DNA of 64,000 bases from Pontiella agarivorans (GTDB taxonomy: Bacteria > Verrucomicrobiota > Kiritimatiellia > Kiritimatiellales > Pontiellaceae), in assembly GCF_034531395.1 (NCBI RefSeq), contig NZ_JARVCO010000002.1, positions 1 through 64,000 on the forward strand, in the 5' to 3' direction. The translations under genes and the position numbers were made by a program. The notes below the pieces were generated by a model. It did not search any database. It was not told where the DNA came from and saw nothing but the letters and a program-made list of their open reading frames with translations. Position 1 is the stretch's first letter. Every line of letters begins with the position of its first letter. Below, piece by piece: positions 37,376 through 50,582 of the stretch.

Positions 37376-37559
37376 GTTGTTCCTTTGCATGTACGCATTG
37401 AATATAGGCGAACTCCGGAGCTTTTCCAGTTTTCTTGGCGTAATATGAATTCTGAAATTTTCGTGCACCGAAGGACGGTTGGATAGGGGTATAATTTATA
37501 AATGGATCCTCTCCATCCCGCCCTCGGGATTGCCAGAGGAATTGTGGCAGGAGATTGCG
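37376..37559 (+). promoter_or_regulatory. Copied sigma-type control region upstream of the sulfatase block
   Basis: It shares TGAATATAGGCGAA, TTTTCCAGTTTT-like and TTGGCGTAAT blocks, in the same order, with the region at 34618-34760. TGCACC (37464-37469) is followed after 20 bases by TATAAT (37490-37495) and TTATAAAT. AGGAG at 37549-37553 is the ribosome site for GTG 37560. It is inferred to drive the sulfatase genes 37560-46399. Confidence 0.6.
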
Positions 37560-39005
37560 GTGAGAAGTTCAGTTCTGTGTATTTTATTGTTTGTCGGATT
37601 GTCGGTTGCGGCACGTCCTAATGTGATCATTATTTTAGCGGATGATCAGGGCTACAACGATTTGGGGTGCTACGGCTCGAAAACGATCAAGACTCCGCGC
37701 ATTGATCAGATGGCGCGGGAAGGGATTCGACTGACCGACTATTATGCGGCGGCACCGTTGTGCGGACCGAGCCGGGCGGCTTTGCTGACCGGCTGTTATG
37801 CGCAGCGCTTGGCGGAATACGGAAAAGAAAAGGAGTGTCATACGGTCATTGATTCAGGTGAAGTATTGATTTCCGAGCTGCTCCAATCGGCGGGCTATAA
37901 AACCGCCTGTATTGGAAAGTGGCATGTGGCCGGCAGTAAAAAGACCTGTATAAAGACGGCGAAAAACGGGAGCGGGCTGGAGCGGTATTCTATGGCCCGC
38001 CCGGAAATTATGCCGATGCAGAAAGGATTCGATGTCTACTTCGGCACGCCATATAGCAACGATATGGATCCAACGGTGCTGATCCGCGGTAATGAGATCG
38101 TGGAAGAGCTTGGACATGGAGAAAAACAGGCCGGTCTGTCAACGCGCTACACCGATGAGGCGCTCAGTTTCATTGAATCGAATAAAGATGCGCCCTTTTT
38201 CCTGTATCTGGCCTTTAATATGCCGCACAAACCGCTGTGGCCGGGTAAAGAATTTGAAGGCAAGTCGGCTTATGGGCGCTACGGGGACTGCATTGAGGAG
38301 ATCGATTGGAACACCGGGCGCGTGCTTGATAAGCTGACGGAATTGGGGATCGATGAGAATACTTTCGTGGTGTACATGTCGGACAACGGTCCGTTTAAAG
38401 CGCATAAGGCGGGCATTCCGAAATTCCTGAAACGGGTACCCGATGCTTCGTACATTCAGGGCGGATGTGCCGATCCGCTGAAAGGACATAAACTCACGTC
38501 CAATGAGGGGGGACTGCGCGTTCCGGCCATCATTCGCTGGCCGAAAGGAATTTCGGCCGGGCGGGTGAGCAGTGAATTGGTTTCTGCGATTGATCTTTTT
38601 CCGACGATTGTCCGTCTGGCCGGAGCAACGCTTCCGGACGATCGGGTGATCGACGGCGTAGATTTGACTGAATTTCTGACGGGAAAACGCGTTCAGTCCG
38701 GGCGGGACCATTTCTATTATTATAAATGGCTTTATCTGTATGCCGTGCGTGACAGCGAGTGGAAATTGGTGATGCCGCGCCCGGCAGTCTATAAAGATAT
38801 GGCCTGGTATTGCCGCGGCCAGGAGGCCGTCAAAGAACCGACGCTTTACAACCTGAAAAAGGATATCGGCGAGACGGTCAACGTTGCCGCACAGCACCCG
38901 GAGGTGGTCAGCCGATTGATGAAGGTGGTTGAGCAGGCTCGGGAAGATCTCGGCGACCGGGCGACCGGACTCGACGGTTCAGGAATCCGACATAACCATA
39001 ACTAG
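37560..39005 (+). CDS. Secreted sulfatase (S1 family), motif CGPSR
   Basis: 481 aa from GTG 37560. The start fits AGGAG six bases upstream and puts a normal signal peptide (VLCILLFVGLSVAA) first. RPNVIIILADDQGYNDLGCYGS; predicted formylglycine C68 in CGPSR, followed by AALLTGCYAQRLAE; GKWHVAG and YMSDNGPF. It is a clear paralogue of the gene at 47612, and the pair of genes here (37560 and 39016) matches the pair at 47612 and 49053 in order and spacing (10 bp). It is first in a tightly spaced run of six sulfatases ending at 46399. Confidence 0.93.
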   Translation: MRSSVLCILLFVGLSVAARPNVIIILADDQGYNDLGCYGSKTIKTPRIDQMAREGIRLTDYYAAAPLCGPSRAALLTGCYAQRLAEYGKEKECHTVIDSGEVLISELLQSAGYKTACIGKWHVAGSKKTCIKTAKNGSGLERYSMARPEIMPMQKGFDVYFGTPYSNDMDPTVLIRGNEIVEELGHGEKQAGLSTRYTDEALSFIESNKDAPFFLYLAFNMPHKPLWPGKEFEGKSAYGRYGDCIEEIDWNTGRVLDKLTELGIDENTFVVYMSDNGPFKAHKAGIPKFLKRVPDASYIQGGCADPLKGHKLTSNEGGLRVPAIIRWPKGISAGRVSSELVSAIDLFPTIVRLAGATLPDDRVIDGVDLTEFLTGKRVQSGRDHFYYYKWLYLYAVRDSEWKLVMPRPAVYKDMAWYCRGQEAVKEPTLYNLKKDIGETVNVAAQHPEVVSRLMKVVEQAREDLGDRATGLDGSGIRHNHN

Positions 39006-39015
39006 GTGAAAACAA

Positions 39016-40626
39016 ATGAAATCAAGAACATGCTATGTTGATTTGACGGACACTGACTACGAAAGACACCGGATACCCGAAAGGGGAACGGGCGGTCATT
39101 TTTTGTGTATCAGGTGCCTTTGGGGGTTGAAATTTGCTGTGACGGTGCTCATCGTTCTTTCTGCTTTCACGGCTTCAAGTTTCGGCGAGAACCCATCGCG
39201 CCCCAATGTATTGTTTATTCTGATCGATGATTTCGGGTGGAAGGATGTTGGCTATAACGGCAGCACATTCTATGAAACGCCGCAAATCGATAAGTTGTCG
39301 AAAGAGTGGATGCGGTTTGATTCCTGTTACACGCCGAGTCCGATGTGTTCTCCGACCCGCGCCAGTATTCTGACAGGTAAAAATCCGGCGCGGCATGGCA
39401 TTACGCAATGGCTGCCGGGGATTGATCGGGCCTATGCGCGGCGGGGGGATACTCCTCGTGTGTATTGCCCGGGGCCGCAATCTCCGACGATTAAGGAAAG
39501 TGAAGTGACTCTGGGTGAAGCATTTCAGGAAGCCGGGTACGAAACGGCGTTTTACGGTAAGTGGCATATGGGGGATTTTCCGTTGAGCGGCGGTCCGAAA
39601 AATCATGGGTATGATTCGCAGGTCGCGGTGATTGAGCGGAATGGATGCGCTCAGTTTTCCTTTAAGCGTTATTTCAAGCAGGCAAAGCCGGGGCAGAGTT
39701 TTAATGATGCTCTGACGGATGCGGCGATTGATTATGTGACGGCCAAAAGGGATAAGCCCTTTTATCTGCATTTGTGCCATTTTGCCATGCATCTTCCAAT
39801 TTCCACGTCGCCGGAATTGCGTGCAAAATTTGAGGCGAAAAAGAACGCATTGGGCCTGACCACGGCTGAGACGAAACTGGATGATTATGCTCATCATCCG
39901 TGGAAACTTCAGCAGGACAGCGCTGAGTATGCAGGTGAGTTATATAATCTGGATTCGAATATCGGCCGGTTGGTGGATGCGCTGAAGAAAAGCGGGCAGT
40001 ATGAAAATACGATCATCGTTTTCACCGGGGATAACGGTGGCCGTACGTCCACAAAGAGTGAACATGCGACGGCTGTGGCTCCGTTGCGCGGTGGAAAAAC
40101 GTATGTGTTTGAGGGCGGTTTGCGGACGCCGACATTAATCTATTGGCCGGGGCATACGAAGGCCGGGATGCATACGGATACGCCGATCAATAGTATGGAT
40201 TTTTATCCGACGCTGCTGGAGATGGCGGGCCTGCCGCTGAAGCCGGAGCAGCATCTGGATGGGCTCAGTATCGTACCGTTGTTTAAAGGTCAACCCGTGG
40301 AGCGTGGTGCGCAATATTGGCATTTTCCGCACTACCAGAAGGACGGCAGTTATCCATCCAGTGCGATTCGCGTCGGCGATTATAAACTGATTCATAATTA
40401 TCATCATGACGATCTGCTCCTGTTCAAGATTTCGGAAGATCCCCATGAAACTAAAAATCTAGCGAAGTCGATGCCTGAAAAAGCGGCGGCGCTGAATAAA
40501 CAGCTGATGGACTATTTGAAAGAGACCGGGGCCTATCTTCCGCAGCCTCCGACACCGGAGCAGCGAATGAGAAAAAACAAGTCCAGAAAGAGTAAGAACA
40601 AGAAGGTTGAAAATCCCATAAAATGA
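39016..40626 (+). CDS. Secreted sulfatase (S1 family), motif CSPTR, long N-terminal leader
   Basis: 536 aa if ATG 39016 is used, which leaves about 36 polar residues before the hydrophobic signal core (FAVTVLIVLSAFTASSFG). A TTG near 39129 would give a normal signal peptide, so the true start is uncertain. ILIDDFGWKDVGYNGSTFYETP; predicted formylglycine C111 in CSPTR, then ILTGKNPARHGITQWLPG; GKWHMGDF and FTGDNGGR. It is a paralogue of 49053 and, more distantly, of 55740. The C-terminus is strongly basic (KNKSRKSKNKK). Its stop overlaps the next gene's ATG by 4 bp. Confidence 0.91.
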   Translation: MKSRTCYVDLTDTDYERHRIPERGTGGHFLCIRCLWGLKFAVTVLIVLSAFTASSFGENPSRPNVLFILIDDFGWKDVGYNGSTFYETPQIDKLSKEWMRFDSCYTPSPMCSPTRASILTGKNPARHGITQWLPGIDRAYARRGDTPRVYCPGPQSPTIKESEVTLGEAFQEAGYETAFYGKWHMGDFPLSGGPKNHGYDSQVAVIERNGCAQFSFKRYFKQAKPGQSFNDALTDAAIDYVTAKRDKPFYLHLCHFAMHLPISTSPELRAKFEAKKNALGLTTAETKLDDYAHHPWKLQQDSAEYAGELYNLDSNIGRLVDALKKSGQYENTIIVFTGDNGGRTSTKSEHATAVAPLRGGKTYVFEGGLRTPTLIYWPGHTKAGMHTDTPINSMDFYPTLLEMAGLPLKPEQHLDGLSIVPLFKGQPVERGAQYWHFPHYQKDGSYPSSAIRVGDYKLIHNYHHDDLLLFKISEDPHETKNLAKSMPEKAAALNKQLMDYLKETGAYLPQPPTPEQRMRKNKSRKSKNKKVENPIK

Positions 40627-42027: not shown

Positions 42028-43545
42028 ATGAAACTGCGTATAACATTGGTGGCGGCTCTGTCGGCTGTAGGGATTCAGTTGACCGTTCCGGCCGCGAATC
42101 AACCGAATATTATCCTGATTATGGCGGATGATATGGGATATTCGGATATCGGTTGCTATGGGGGAGAGATTGATACGCCGAATATTGACCGTTTGGCAGC
42201 TGAAGGCATGCGGTTTCGTCAGTTCTACAACAATGCCAAATGTACGACGACGCGGGCTTCATTGATGAGCGGGCTTTACCCTCAGCTGGATAAAAAGGGA
42301 AAACCGTTTCTCTCCGACGACATGCTGACCTTGCCGCAGGCGATGAAATTGGCGGGGTATCGTACGATTTTGAGCGGAAAGTGGCATCTGGGAAACAGCA
42401 GCGGCCACCTGCCGATCGATCGCGGATTTGATGAAAGTTACGGTCTGTTTGACGGCTGCTGCAACTTTTTTGATCCAGCGCGTCCGATTCCGACATCAAA
42501 GAAAAAAAAGGTCCGTTGGTTTGGTCGGAACCGGACGCGGATTACCGAGTTTCCCGCCGACTTTTATGCGACTGACGCATTTACCGATCATGCGCTGAAT
42601 GAGATCCGCCAGGCGGTTGCGGCGGATCAGCCTTATTTCCTGCATCTGGCATATACCGCACCGCATTTTCCGCTGCATGCCAAACCGGTGGATATCGAAA
42701 AATATAAGGGGCGGTATGCGGCCGGTTGGGCGGCGCTGCGCAAGGAGCGTCATCAGCGGATGATTGAGCTGGGAATTATTGCTCCGGATGTAAAACTTTC
42801 CGATGCAGATCCTGAGGCGACTGCGTGGACCGGAAGGGCCGAAGATCAGCGATTGATGGAGGTCTATGCGGCGATGATCGACTGCATGGATCAGAATATC
42901 GGTCGGGTATTAAGCCTGTTGGATGAAACGGGAACGGCCGAGAATACCGTAATCTTTTTTTTGTCGGATAACGGTGCCAGTGCCGAAGATTATGATGCGG
43001 ACTACGTGAAGGGGGCCGAGATCGGTTCGGTTGATTCGTATCGAGTGGTCCATCCGAGCTGGGCGAATGCGCAGAATACGCCGTTTCGCAAATTTAAACT
43101 GAATGGGCATGAAGGCGGCATTTGTACGCCGTTTATTGTCCGTTGGCCGGGCAACGTTCAGGCGGGCAGCTGGAATGATTCGGTGGCACACATCATCGAT
43201 ATTGAGCCGACTTTGATGAAGCTTGCCGGACTGGATCCGAATACTGATGTTCCTGCCGGTAAACGTCCGCTGGAGGGTGAGGTTTTTCTTGCTGCATTTT
43301 CCGGTGAACGGATTGAGCGGAGCAAGCCCTTCTTTATGGAGTTTAAGGGTAATCGTGCCGTTCGGGATGGCGATTGGAAAGCGGCCTATTTCAACAAGAC
43401 GAAGAAATGGGAACTGTTCAATCTGGCACAGGACCGTTCGGAGTGTGTCGATTTGGCGGCGGACTATCCTGAAAAACTAAAAGCGTTGACAGGCGCCTGG
43501 GATCAGTGGGCTGAAAAGCACGGCCGCACCGGGAAAAAGAAATAA
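42028..43545 (+). CDS. Secreted sulfatase with non-canonical motif CTTTR
   Basis: 505 aa. Signal peptide LRITLVAALSAVGIQLTVPAA, QPNIILIMADDMGYSDIGCYGGE. The predicted formylglycine cysteine C72 lies in CTTTR (FYNNAKCTTTRASLMSG), so the usual Pro is Thr. All the other core motifs are normal: GKWHLGN, FLSDNGASAED and HEGGICTPFIVRWPG. The arrangement around YNNAKC is otherwise typical of the arylsulfatase group whose motif reads RCCPTR. It probably remains a formylglycine enzyme if the maturase tolerates the substitution. It is linked 1 bp and 10 bp to its neighbours. Confidence 0.91.
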   Translation: MKLRITLVAALSAVGIQLTVPAANQPNIILIMADDMGYSDIGCYGGEIDTPNIDRLAAEGMRFRQFYNNAKCTTTRASLMSGLYPQLDKKGKPFLSDDMLTLPQAMKLAGYRTILSGKWHLGNSSGHLPIDRGFDESYGLFDGCCNFFDPARPIPTSKKKKVRWFGRNRTRITEFPADFYATDAFTDHALNEIRQAVAADQPYFLHLAYTAPHFPLHAKPVDIEKYKGRYAAGWAALRKERHQRMIELGIIAPDVKLSDADPEATAWTGRAEDQRLMEVYAAMIDCMDQNIGRVLSLLDETGTAENTVIFFLSDNGASAEDYDADYVKGAEIGSVDSYRVVHPSWANAQNTPFRKFKLNGHEGGICTPFIVRWPGNVQAGSWNDSVAHIIDIEPTLMKLAGLDPNTDVPAGKRPLEGEVFLAAFSGERIERSKPFFMEFKGNRAVRDGDWKAAYFNKTKKWELFNLAQDRSECVDLAADYPEKLKALTGAWDQWAEKHGRTGKKK

Positions 43546-46399: not shown

Positions 46400-46401
46400 G
46401 T

Positions 46402-46467
46402 CGGAGTATCCTGTTGGTTTCGGATAATACGGCGGCCTTGCTACGGGGCCCTTGTCAGGATACTCCG
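46402..46467. terminator. Long stem-loop after the six-sulfatase run
   Basis: A perfect 12-bp inverted repeat, CGGAGTATCCTG (46402-46413) and CAGGATACTCCG (46456-46467), lies directly after the stop at 46399 with a 42-nt loop that can form a further GC-rich stem. There is no clear T-run. It probably ends or stabilises the upstream transcript. Confidence 0.55.
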
Positions 46468-46525
46468 GAATAAAACCGGCGCGGCAGGTTTTCCGAAGAT
46501 TAAAACAAGAGAGAGCATCGCAGCA

Positions 46526-46750
46526 GTGTGCCGCCGAGTATGCCGGAGTGGTTTAGAATGGAAGAAGATGCACCAGGAGTTGAGGAAAAAATCCGCATTG
46601 TCCGGGGAATATACGCATTTAGCAGAGAGTCCGGAGCACCGGCAAGTCGCCGAACACTTCAAGACCGGGATGGAGAAGAAACTGAAGACAATACGTGGTA
46701 ACGATCTTTCTCGAAAAAAAGAAGGTATCCAGGATGCAGTTACGCCGTAA
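46526..46750 (+). pseudogene. Sulfatase C-terminal remnant
   Basis: This 74-codon frame contains WKKMHQELRKKSALSGEY, then THLAESPEHRQVAEHFKTGM. It resembles the end of S1 sulfatases, where a 'G E x x N L A ... P E ... V' stretch is followed by a basic helix. Nothing upstream resembles the catalytic part. It appears to be the leftover tail of a deleted sulfatase gene between the two paralogous sulfatase blocks. Confidence 0.5.
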
Positions 46751-46795
46751 TGAGAAGGTGGCTGCTTGTTTCGGGAAATATAACTATCCCGCACC

Positions 46796-47140
46796 GTGCT
46801 CCGGTTGCGCTATGAGGATGCGCTCAAAACAGCCCGGCGGGCCGAGAGCGCCATGACTGAGGAACAGGCGCGTTTTTTCTACGATAATGCCATGTATGGC
46901 ATGCTGATCGATTTTCGCCCGACGCAGGCGGCCGTGTTGGCCTGGGAGGCCGCAGAGTCTGGGTCGGAAGTCCCGCTGTTGAAGGCGATGGATAAACTTG
47001 AGTTGCTGGAGCAGGAAACGCTCAAAGCTGAATTTTATCCATTTGAAAACTGGTATCGGGAGACCTGGATTCGCAGACGACCGCGCTTTTATAATATCCA
47101 TTACAGTTATCATAAATTACGTGCCTATCTTGAACGATAA
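46796..47140 (+). pseudogene. C-terminal fragment of an unrecognised larger enzyme
   Basis: 114 codons with no ribosome site and no signal peptide, starting abruptly with RLRYEDALKTARRAESAMT. It is predicted helical and contains YPFENWYRETWIRRRPRFYN near the end. It looks like the helical tail of a large secreted glycosidase, but I cannot name the family. The lack of a proper start and its position in a fossil-rich gap suggest a truncated gene. It could still be a small expressed protein. Confidence 0.45.
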
Positions 47141-47611
47141 AGTAACGGGGAATCTTTTTTCAGAAAGGAGATTTCCAGAGGTTGGAATTAGGAATAGGTA
47201 AATTCTGATCCAGAACGATCTTTTCATGCTTCAGCGGGGACTGATGGTCCCTGTAATCTCAAATATGGTTCCTTAGAAGTAACCCTTCCTTTACAAGCGG
47301 GGCTGGTACACAGCTTGAGCGGCAGTTTGCAGCTGAGTAAACAGGAAGAAGAATAGGTAACTTCCCGCAGTGTCGTTATTCGAAACAGGGAGCGAGACAC
47401 ATTCTGTTTCGTTGATGAGTCATTTTCATTCAGAGAAAGCGGTGCCTGTGCCGCAAGTTTCTATTTCCGCACTCCAGCTTGTTTACTGCACCCTTCGCAT
47501 GCGGTGAATTTTTCTCAAGAAATGGCTCCCGCGTGCACCGAAGAGCTCTTGGGCACAGGTATAACTTTATAAATACGCCTCTCTGATTCAGGAGTAGGCG
47601 GGGAGGTTGTG
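47141..47611 (+). promoter_or_regulatory. Intergenic region: palindrome, coding remnant and copied promoter motif
   Basis: This 471-bp region has no intact gene. It contains a TTCCA-N5-TGGAA palindrome (47173-47187). The short frame 47258-47356 reads LKYGSLEVTLPLQAGL and ends at a stop, and may be the tail of a lost beta-sandwich protein. TGCACC (47534-47539) is followed after 20 bases by TATAAC (47560-47565) and TTTATAAAT, matching the elements at 34716 and 37464. The motif ends 46 bp before the sulfatase start and is the probable promoter of 47612-50582. Confidence 0.55.
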
Positions 47612-49042
47612 GTGAAGGTTTTTGTTTATTGTGCATTGTTGATGGTCAGTATTTCGGCCATTGCGCGCCCGAATATCATTATTATTTTAACCGATGATCA
47701 GGGCTATAATGATTTGGGATGTTATGGATCGGAAACCATTAAAACGCCGCGTATTGATCAGATGGCAAAAGAGGGGATGCGACTGACGAGTTTCTATGCG
47801 GCCGCTCCATTGTGCGGCCAGAGTCGGTCGGCACTGTTAACCGGATGCTATTCCCAGAGATTGGCCGAATTGGGGGATGAGAAGGAGTTTCATACCACCA
47901 TCAGTCCGGAAGAAATTTTACTTTCTGAAGTATTGAAAAAAAGCGGGTATATAACCGGCTGCATTGGAAAATGGCATCTTGCCGGCACTCGGCGAAATTG
48001 CATTAGTTCGTCAAAAAAAGAGGGCTTCGGTTTAGTGCACCCCGAAATTATGCCGATGCAAAAGGGCTTTGATTCGTATCTGGGGATTCCTTACAGCAAC
48101 GATACTCCTCCCATCGTTTTAATGCGGGGCAATGAGATTATTGAAGAGCTGGGACGTGGCGAAAAACAAACGGGGATCACGACGCGCTATACCGATGAGG
48201 CCTTGAGGTTTATCGAGGACAATCAGCAGGGTCCCTTTTTCCTTTATCTGGCGCACAACATGCCGCATGCGCCTCTTTGGCCGGGCAAAGATTTTGAAGG
48301 TAAATCGGAGTATGGCCGCTACGGGGATTGTGTGGAGGAGATCGATTGGAATACGGGGCGCATTCTGGACAAGCTTAAGGAATTGGGGATCGATGAAAAG
48401 ACCATCGTAATCTACATGTCGGATAACGGCCCGTGGCTCCGGAAGCCAAAGGATAAAGGGGCGTTACGGTTTGTTCCGGATGCATCCTATCTCCAAGGGG
48501 GGTGCGCAGATCCGCTTCGGGGATCGAAGATGACCACTTATGATGGCGGACTGCGTGTGCCGTGCATCATTCGCTGGCCGAAGTCGATTGCTGCCGGCCG
48601 GGTTAGCGACGAATTGGTTTCTGCGCTCGATTGGTTCCCGACGTTGGCCCGTTTCGCGAATGCTCAAATCCCGACGGACCGAACGATTGACGGGGTGGAC
48701 CAGAGCGCATTTTTGACGGGGAAATCCGAGCATTCATCGCGTCAGGATTTTTATTATTACAAATGGCTGCATTTGCATGCGGTGCGTTCCGGTGATTGGA
48801 AACTGGTGCTTCCGCGCGAAGCTAAACCGGCGGATTTGGGATGGTATAATAAGCATCAGGAAGCTGTCACCGAAACGACGCTTTATCATCTGAAAAAGGA
48901 CATTGGAGAGACGACGAATGTTGCAAAGCAAAACCCGGAAGTGGTCAGCCGTTTAATGAAAATTATTGAAAAGGCACAACGAGATCTCGGCGACCAAAGC
49001 CGTGGAATCGACGGGCAGGGCATTCGTCATACGAATAAATAG
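47612..49042 (+). CDS. Secreted sulfatase paralogue with altered motif CGQSR
   Basis: 476 aa from GTG 47612; GTG 47609 is possible, but GGAGG at 47602-47606 fits 47612 better. Signal peptide VYCALLMVSISAIA, RPNIIIILTDDQGYNDLGCYGS. The site equivalent to C68 of the paralogue at 37560 reads CGQSR: the conserved Pro is Gln and the rest of the surroundings (YAAAPLCGQSRSALLTGCYS) is unchanged. GKWHLAGTRR and YMSDNGPW are intact. It shares gene order (next gene 10 bp away) and promoter motif with the 37560-40626 pair, so it is one half of a duplicated two-gene cassette. Conversion of this cysteine may be impaired. Confidence 0.91.
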   Translation: MKVFVYCALLMVSISAIARPNIIIILTDDQGYNDLGCYGSETIKTPRIDQMAKEGMRLTSFYAAAPLCGQSRSALLTGCYSQRLAELGDEKEFHTTISPEEILLSEVLKKSGYITGCIGKWHLAGTRRNCISSSKKEGFGLVHPEIMPMQKGFDSYLGIPYSNDTPPIVLMRGNEIIEELGRGEKQTGITTRYTDEALRFIEDNQQGPFFLYLAHNMPHAPLWPGKDFEGKSEYGRYGDCVEEIDWNTGRILDKLKELGIDEKTIVIYMSDNGPWLRKPKDKGALRFVPDASYLQGGCADPLRGSKMTTYDGGLRVPCIIRWPKSIAAGRVSDELVSALDWFPTLARFANAQIPTDRTIDGVDQSAFLTGKSEHSSRQDFYYYKWLHLHAVRSGDWKLVLPREAKPADLGWYNKHQEAVTETTLYHLKKDIGETTNVAKQNPEVVSRLMKIIEKAQRDLGDQSRGIDGQGIRHTNK

Positions 49043-49052
49043 GAATCTGATT

Positions 49053-50582
49053 ATGAAAATAAAACTGAATATACTGATTACGGGTTTGCTGATTTTTTCT
49101 GCGCAAGGGAAGGTGGATGATTCACCCCGGGAGCGTCTGGAAAAACCCAATATTTTGTTCATATTGATTGATGATTTCGGCTGGAACGATGTCGGTTATA
49201 ACGGCAGTACGTTTTATGAAACGCCGCGGCTCGATCAATTGGCAAGCGAATGGATTCGATTAGACTACTGCTATACGCCGAGTCCCATGTGTTCGCCGAC
49301 GCGTACGAGTATTCTGACTGGAAAAAATCCGGCGCGTCACGGGGTGACCCAGTGGTTGCCGGGGCGCGATACCTTTTATGGGTTACCGGATCAAACGGCG
49401 AACGTGTATTGCCCGACCCCGTTATCGAAAGGTATCAAGGAGAGTGAGGTAACACTGGGTGAGGCTTTCCAGTCGGCAGGGTATGAAACGGCGTTTATGG
49501 GTAAATGGCACATGGGAAAATTCAAGGTAACCGGCGGGCCGGCCAATCATGGCTATGCCTTCACACAAGCGGTGATTGAAGAAAATGGTTGTGACATGTT
49601 TTACCCTTTTCGCGGGCATCCTGAATATTTCCCCAATGCTAAAAAGGGCGATAATTTTACTGATTTGCTGACGGATGCGGCGATTGATTTTGTGACGGCC
49701 GATCGGGAGAAACCGTTTTATCTGCATTTATGTCATTTCGCGATGCATCATCCCATTGGTTCGAAGCCGGAGCTGCGCGAATATTTTGAACAAAAACGGG
49801 CGGCGTTACCGGTATTGGAAAATGATCGGATTCAAACAGACCATATGCATAAGCCGCAGAAATTCCGACAGGATGATCCTGAATATGCCGGAGAGTTGGC
49901 AACGCTGGATGAAAATATCGGACGTTTAGTTGATGCTTTAAAAGCCGCGGGGCAGTATGAAAACACGATCATTGTGTTTACTGGAGATAACGGCGGGCGC
50001 ACTTCGTATCATCGGGAGCACCCGACATCGGTACAACCGCTTCGCGCCGGTAAAACCTTTGTTTATGAAGGCGGACTGCGTACGCCGTTACTGATTCATT
50101 TGCCAAAATATTCAGGAACAAAGACGATTGATGTGCCGGTTTCGAGTATGGATTTTTATCCCACGTTGCTGGATCTGGCAGGGTTGCCGCTGAAACCGGA
50201 ACAGCATCTGGATGGGGTGAACCTCGCTCCTCTGTTTGATGGAAAGACGATTGAGCGCGAACCGTTTGTTTGGCATTTCCCTCATTACCAGCATGAAGGT
50301 TCCTATCCGTCCAGCGCGATCCGCATGGGCGATTATAAACTGATTCATGATTATTTTTATGACGACGAGCAGTTGTTTGATGTGGTGAATGATCCGTATG
50401 AAAAAAATGATCTTGCTGCACGGCATCCGGAACGGACGAAACGCATGAAGGAGCAGTTGATGGCCTATTTGAAAAATGCGGGAGCCTATCTTCCGGTGGC
50501 ACCCACTGCTGCTGAAATTGAATCCATGCGTCTGGGCGCGATCAAAGACGCAAAAAAGAACCGTCGGAAAAAAAAGAAGTAA
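49053..50582 (+). CDS. Secreted sulfatase (S1 family), motif CSPTR
   Basis: 509 aa from ATG 49053; the longer frame upstream overlaps the preceding gene. Signal peptide LNILITGLLIFSAQG, PNILFILIDDFGWNDVGYNGS. Predicted formylglycine C80 in CSPTR, then ILTGKNPARHGVTQWLPG; GKWHMGKF and FTGDNGGRTSYHREHPT. It is a paralogue of 39016 across the whole length (same PHYQ.EGSYPSSAIR and YKLIH segments) but without that gene's long leader. The C-terminus is a lysine-rich tail (KKNRRKKKK). It is the second gene of the duplicated cassette. Confidence 0.93.
   Translation: MKIKLNILITGLLIFSAQGKVDDSPRERLEKPNILFILIDDFGWNDVGYNGSTFYETPRLDQLASEWIRLDYCYTPSPMCSPTRTSILTGKNPARHGVTQWLPGRDTFYGLPDQTANVYCPTPLSKGIKESEVTLGEAFQSAGYETAFMGKWHMGKFKVTGGPANHGYAFTQAVIEENGCDMFYPFRGHPEYFPNAKKGDNFTDLLTDAAIDFVTADREKPFYLHLCHFAMHHPIGSKPELREYFEQKRAALPVLENDRIQTDHMHKPQKFRQDDPEYAGELATLDENIGRLVDALKAAGQYENTIIVFTGDNGGRTSYHREHPTSVQPLRAGKTFVYEGGLRTPLLIHLPKYSGTKTIDVPVSSMDFYPTLLDLAGLPLKPEQHLDGVNLAPLFDGKTIEREPFVWHFPHYQHEGSYPSSAIRMGDYKLIHDYFYDDEQLFDVVNDPYEKNDLAARHPERTKRMKEQLMAYLKNAGAYLPVAPTAAEIESMRLGAIKDAKKNRRKKKK

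Follow-up and report, generated by a model that had tools for sequence, protein, structure and literature searches.

Formylglycine maturation activates sulfatases and also serves to tag recombinant proteins, and the Pro or Ala two residues after the catalytic Cys (position +2) is treated as a recognition signal. For S1 sulfatases of the C-x-[PA]-x-R type, the updated catalytic-site pattern permits only these two residues at +2 (PMC5066984). The SulfAtlas-linked survey in the same source reported Pro in 87% of 4,058 sequences, Ala in 369 sequences and each of the other residues in less than 1%. Changes of the Pro are described for human iduronate-2-sulfatase (IDS), in which P86L accompanies the severe form of the disease and the corresponding substitution in mice impairs enzyme function (PMC10185571), and of which the P86L/R variants traffic poorly (PMC5472762). 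This harm, like the rarity of other residues in the survey, counts against a tolerance of Gln at this position. A search of the open literature for 'P86Q' together with 'iduronate' returned no paper. An S1_8A sulfatase of solved structure (9bb9, 9bes) resembles the protein described below in having neither Pro nor Ala at +2, but the residue is Thr and not Gln. In this C-S-T-A-R sulfatase one chain (PDB 9bes_B) shows a non-standard residue, given as X, at the position of the Cys, which may count for tolerance, and the other chains show Cys.

Pontiella agarivorans NLcol2 is an anaerobe that degrades seaweed polysaccharides, for which the genome authors count 165 sulfatases, five genes for formylglycine-generating enzymes (FGE) and one anSME (PMC10880615). 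Here we describe a sulfatase gene of this species with Gln at +2. It lies in a stretch of 64,000 nucleotides at the start of contig NZ_JARVCO010000002.1, which is referred to as the window.

A sulfatase gene with Gln in the maturation motif

The Gln gene is intact and encodes 477 aa, with a GTG start, a hydrophobic leader (judged by eye) and YAAAPLCGQSRSALLTGC around the catalytic site. Against PF00884 the protein scored 206 bits (cut-off 25) and covered profile positions 1-300 of 301, and the C-G-Q-S-R site aligned with the catalytic Cys of this full-length domain. Its best sequence match among solved structures was human steryl-sulfatase (8eg3, 1p49). Besides +2, 10 of 10 catalytic or calcium-binding positions were intact in an alignment to the positions of AtsA (Table 1). 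The protein has in common with S1 sulfatases of the C-x-[PA]-x-R type the family, the nucleophile precursor Cys69, Arg73 at +4, the calcium ligands and the Lys/His set, but carries Gln71 instead of Pro or Ala at +2 and therefore falls outside the updated pattern. Since sequences with neither Pro nor Ala are counted both in the SulfAtlas survey and in the genome itself (see below), Gln71 weakens the description of the motif as canonical and not the assignment as a sulfatase.

Table 1. Positions in the window of the Gln-type sulfatase gene, its catalytic residues, its paralogue and the second genes of both modules.
Feature	Position	Strand	Basis
Sulfatase, PF00884, S1 type, C-x-Q-x-R	47609..49042	+	ORF, profile match
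Asp29-Asp30, calcium ligands (AtsA D13, D14)	47693..47698	+	
Catalytic site C-G-Q-S-R, TGC GGC CAG AGT CGG	47813..47827	+	
Cys69, formylglycine precursor position	within 47813..47827	+	alignment
CAG, Gln71 at +2; CCG (Pro) in paralogue	47819..47821	+	codon comparison
Lys121 and His123 (AtsA K113, H115)	47969..47977	+	
His220 (AtsA H211)	48266..48268	+	
Asp272-Asn273 (AtsA D317, N318)	48422..48427	+	
Lys307 (AtsA K375)	48527..48529	+	
Second gene of the same module, CSPTR	48966..50582	+	
Paralogous sulfatase, C-G-P-S-R	37479..39005	+	
Paralogue site C-G-P-S-R, TGC GGA CCG AGC CGG	37761..37775	+	
Second gene of the first module, CSPTR	39016..40626	+	

The duplicated two-sulfatase module

An adjacent pair of sulfatase genes is present twice in the window, and the Gln gene is the first gene of the second pair. 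DNA identity between the copies was 69% for the first genes (47663-48995 vs 37611-38958) and 68% for the second genes (49146-50495 vs 39202-40542). Within the ORF of the second gene that follows the Gln gene, an ATG at 49053 is located 10 bases past the end of the Gln gene. The paralogue shares about 68% identity and the two-gene module with the Gln protein and differs from it by Pro at +2, a change of one base. The initial annotation had reported CGQSR in place of C-x-P-x-R and a paralogue with CGPSR; both were borne out, with CCG at the matching codon of the latter. The position given for the paralogue, 37560, is the start of the match to the paralogue gene and not the site, as the Cys codon is found at 37761. 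The flanking residues are unchanged as had been stated, except for the residue after the Arg, which is Ser in the Gln copy and Ala in the paralogue.

The 1.2 kb before the Gln gene (46400-47608) contain no ORF of more than 120 aa, inside an otherwise dense sulfatase cluster. We considered this region as a remnant of an upstream gene and rejected this, as it gave no significant match to six upstream proteins of the window and an ORF at 46796 was without Pfam match.

Searches in 29 genomes of the family gave matches at E up to 1e-100 in seven genomes including its own, and those of the other genomes reached at most 52% identity. A scan of viral contigs with the Gln protein gave no matches, and from a scan of genome contigs the best 80 of 130 confirmed stretches were kept. 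The family search and these best 80 of 130 stretches amounted to 167 distinct sulfatase rows with the motifs C-x-P-x-R (145), C-x-A (9), S-x-P (2), C-x-G (2), C-x-T (1) and C-x-Q (2, both of them the window gene), and 6 unread. Every row above 350 bits among them had Pro, except the window gene. Gln is a singleton in its own subfamily as sampled, and conservation therefore does not vouch for the window gene.

When the differences between the copies were polarised with six outgroup proteins, 39 fell on the Gln copy and 38 on the Pro copy. Out of 112 sites invariant in the outgroups, the Gln copy alone differed at three (including the Pro itself), the Pro copy alone at five and both copies at three. 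The pairwise dN/dS was 0.108, at a dS of 2.27 that is near saturation. By these comparisons the Gln copy appears to be under no relaxed constraint, though a recent substitution would leave no such sign.

The best surviving alternative to a matured enzyme is a recently impaired copy, in which Gln would block or strongly slow maturation and the gene would be a redundant, mostly unmodified duplicate that has not yet decayed. The singleton status of Gln in its subfamily, the presence of a Pro copy 10 kb away and the pathogenicity of the Pro-to-Leu change at the same position of human IDS (PMC10185571) all fit this explanation. However, the invariant sites carry no excess of changes, the two copies show no asymmetry, and an unrelated clade of intact sulfatases has kept Gln (see below), so that we consider it unlikely, although it deserves serious attention.

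Gln and other residues at +2 in further sulfatases

The genome that contains the window consists of 12 contigs with 4,436,865 bases, one contig having 1,265,434, and gave 152 PF00884 matches. We read the site in 156 distinct sulfatase-profile ORFs from the window and 53 stretches of this genome; these are the matches listed, and some sulfatases may be missing. Among the matches listed, the motifs were C-x-P-x-R (130), C-x-A (12), C-x-T (5), C-x-V (3), C-x-Q (1) and C-x-G (1), while the other four ORFs comprised two truncated and unread ones, one with Gly for Cys and one without most sulfatase residues. Neither Pro nor Ala was thus present at +2 in 10 of the 152 C-x-?-x-R sulfatases among the matches listed. 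Besides the Gln gene, one of these ten belongs to the same cluster (42028-43545 of the window); its +2 residue is Thr (KCTTTR) and its remaining catalytic positions are intact. Eight more are found elsewhere in the genome, with Thr (L010, L046, L047, L001), Val (L039, L040, L045) or Gly (L044). A sulfatase-like protein (L011, 1737-3119) retains most of the positions but has Gly at that of the catalytic Cys and Gln at that of H115, all others being unchanged, and is a candidate for a natural pseudoenzyme. In the 29 family genomes, a pattern for residues other than Pro, Ala, Ser and Thr matched 23 places, 12 of which were sulfatase sites: eight with Val, two with Ile, one with Gly and one, the window gene, with Gln. 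Related genomes, too, have Val, Ile and Gly types.

We further screened the class and the phylum with a tight pattern, C-x-Q-[ST]-R, that accepted Arg as CGN only and a restricted next residue. It matched in 4 of 345 class genomes and 13 of 387 phylum genomes, two overlapping sets, and 2 of the 4 and 9 of the 13 places were without a sulfatase-profile ORF of at least 100 aa in the locus. The sulfatases recovered were the window gene, L247, L257 and L258 (all three CSQSR) and L256 (CSQTR). This pattern undercounts, since a search with L258 added members to the clade described below. A loose Gln pattern was discarded as evidence because it matched 263 of the 387 phylum genomes and its Arg codon admitted Ser. 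Its matches included two near-identical peptides with C-S-Q-S-S in two genomes of one genus, C-S-Q-S-S-A-S-V-I-S-G (G116:C63:5450-5481) and C-S-Q-S-S-A-S-V-I-N-G (G207:C1:985346-985377).

L247, L257 and L258 represent one subfamily, with 66% identity between classes and 91% within the genus, and best PDB matches of L247 were human SGSH (4mhx) and an S1_8A sulfatase. Between L257 and L258 the dN/dS was 0.21. When 12 genomes from the order of its host (G577) were searched with L247, only L247 itself was returned. Among 372 genomes of another order (that of G247), 34 contained matches to L258 at E up to 1e-80, 48 in all. These comprised 25 with Gln (24 CSQSR and 1 CSQCR) in 20 genomes, 20 with Pro, one with Ala and two in which the match stops short of the site, which was therefore left unread. 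All Gln matches had at least 55% identity to L258 and the Pro or Ala matches at most 54%. Together with L247, the SGSH-like Gln clade contains 26 proteins (25 CSQSR, 1 CSQCR; L247, L257, L258, L262-L278, L280 and L315-L319) from two classes of the phylum.

An initial tree, built from 372 sulfatases with the motif columns removed and only part of this clade included, split the clade around two Pro sequences (support 0.69) and required four changes. In a tree of 389 tips the 26 Gln proteins formed one group, with a support of only 0.64, beside four CSPSR proteins. Three changes were needed here, namely in the SGSH-like clade, in L256, which is a Gln singleton in a third lineage, and in the window gene. 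The window protein grouped with its CGPSR paralogue (support 1.0) and not with the SGSH-like clade. The ten catalytic positions are retained in all 28 Gln proteins of the tree; in the 26 clade members D13 is Glu and N318 is His, variants that were both also seen in pooled Pro-type sulfatases. The clade resembles the window protein in Gln at the same position and in intact catalytic positions, but is a separate lineage, with about 29% identity to the window protein, and across it Gln is conserved. The occurrence of Gln in two unrelated sulfatase lineages, with conservation in one, suggests that it is probably tolerated at +2 rather than fatal.

Genes of the CSQSR clade were often found near BNR-repeat proteins, one cluster of which occurred in 9 of 20 loci (e.g. 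L297 12586-13932, L304 14851-17457 and similar neighbours). Another neighbour cluster, the longest member of which has NanM and sodium-symporter domains, occurred in 8 of the 20; one member of each cluster was scanned for domains. These neighbours suggest a sialoglycan context.

No paper was returned for 'CSQSR' together with 'sulfatase' in the open literature searched, which does not make the motif undescribed. The family as such is known; the published pattern leaves out the Gln-type variant of its motif, most notably that of the conserved CSQSR clade.

Maturases and the fate of the Gln site

Oxygen-dependent FGEs are marked by a C-x4-C pair. The genome of P. agarivorans showed one anSME (TIGR03942, 516 bits) and seven PF03781 matches, one of which (L054) has such a pair, CHDSYC, by regular expression. 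The initial annotation had named FGEs as the recognising enzymes; an FGE-family protein with the Cys pair is indeed present, but the anaerobe also has an anSME, which had been left out. TIGR03942 was above cut-off in the related genomes G002 and G028 as well. By contrast, no anSME was found above the cut-off of 349 in the four genomes with other Gln sulfatases (G247, G330, G359 and the 86% complete G577), three of which gave TIGR03942 matches of 22 to 27 bits. The three checked genomes of the SGSH-like clade differ in this from that of the window, and the four genomes therefore give no evidence of an anSME accepting Gln. Should the Gln enzymes of these four genomes contain formylglycine, it would most likely be made by an FGE-type enzyme. 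Around CSQSR genes, 20 loci of 3 to 20 kb were inspected; one of them (L313) had an FGE-family protein that carries the Cys pair, and two others (L304, L308) had a protein that weakly matches FGE and is without the pair. A dedicated maturase beside the CSQSR genes was therefore rejected, as no partner was consistent across the 20 loci.

The explanation towards which we lean is that the Gln gene encodes a matured, working and exported S1 sulfatase that exchanged Pro for Gln after a tandem duplication. A two-sulfatase module would have been duplicated in tandem, and one copy would then have changed from Pro to Gln at +2 of the maturation motif while retaining the Cys that becomes the formylglycine nucleophile, the Arg, the calcium site and the Lys/His set. 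Cys69 would most likely still be converted to formylglycine, maybe less efficiently than in CGPSR; given the anaerobic lifestyle, the one anSME would do most of this. We infer export, conversion and its rate, the acting maturase and the activity of the Gln protein from sequence. Among the three outcomes initially proposed, an unmodified enzyme, a slowly modified one or a tolerant maturase, sequence cannot decide, yet the evidence leans to tolerance given the lack of decay, the nine other sulfatases with neither Pro nor Ala and the clade of 26 Gln proteins with intact catalytic positions. The uniqueness of Gln that had been implied did not hold up, as Gln is found repeatedly and Thr, Val, Ile and Gly are present at +2 as well.

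Alternatively, the protein might need no formylglycine, and its Cys thiol would itself serve as a slow nucleophile or play some other part. An unmodified choline sulfatase is reported to turn over still, with a kcat of 0.27 per s, but the same source expects kcat to rise 5- to 2500-fold with formylglycine, as for other enzymes (PMC6189696), and no sequence feature of the Gln protein points to a different chemistry, which makes this improbable. A sequencing or assembly error is very improbable: Gln and Pro are one base apart and no other sampled member of the subfamily has the change, but the NLcol2 genome has a mean Illumina coverage of 593x (PMC10880615), and short reads should not mix two copies that are only about 69% identical in DNA.

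CGQSR is best regarded as a natural and recurrent variant of the motif that is probably still matured, possibly slowly. A broader and more tentative proposal, which we hold to be quite possible but would not bet on, is that C-x-Q-x-R is a real, repeatedly evolved motif and that maturases of the phylum convert its Cys, FGE in the CSQSR clade and anSME in Pontiella. If this is true, the [PA] rule would be too narrow both for recognising sulfatases and for explaining maturase recognition. Searches that demand [PA] would miss Gln-type enzymes. The Gln clade and the pair of Pro and Gln paralogues in an anaerobe with one anSME offer natural substrate pairs for probing how strict maturases are.
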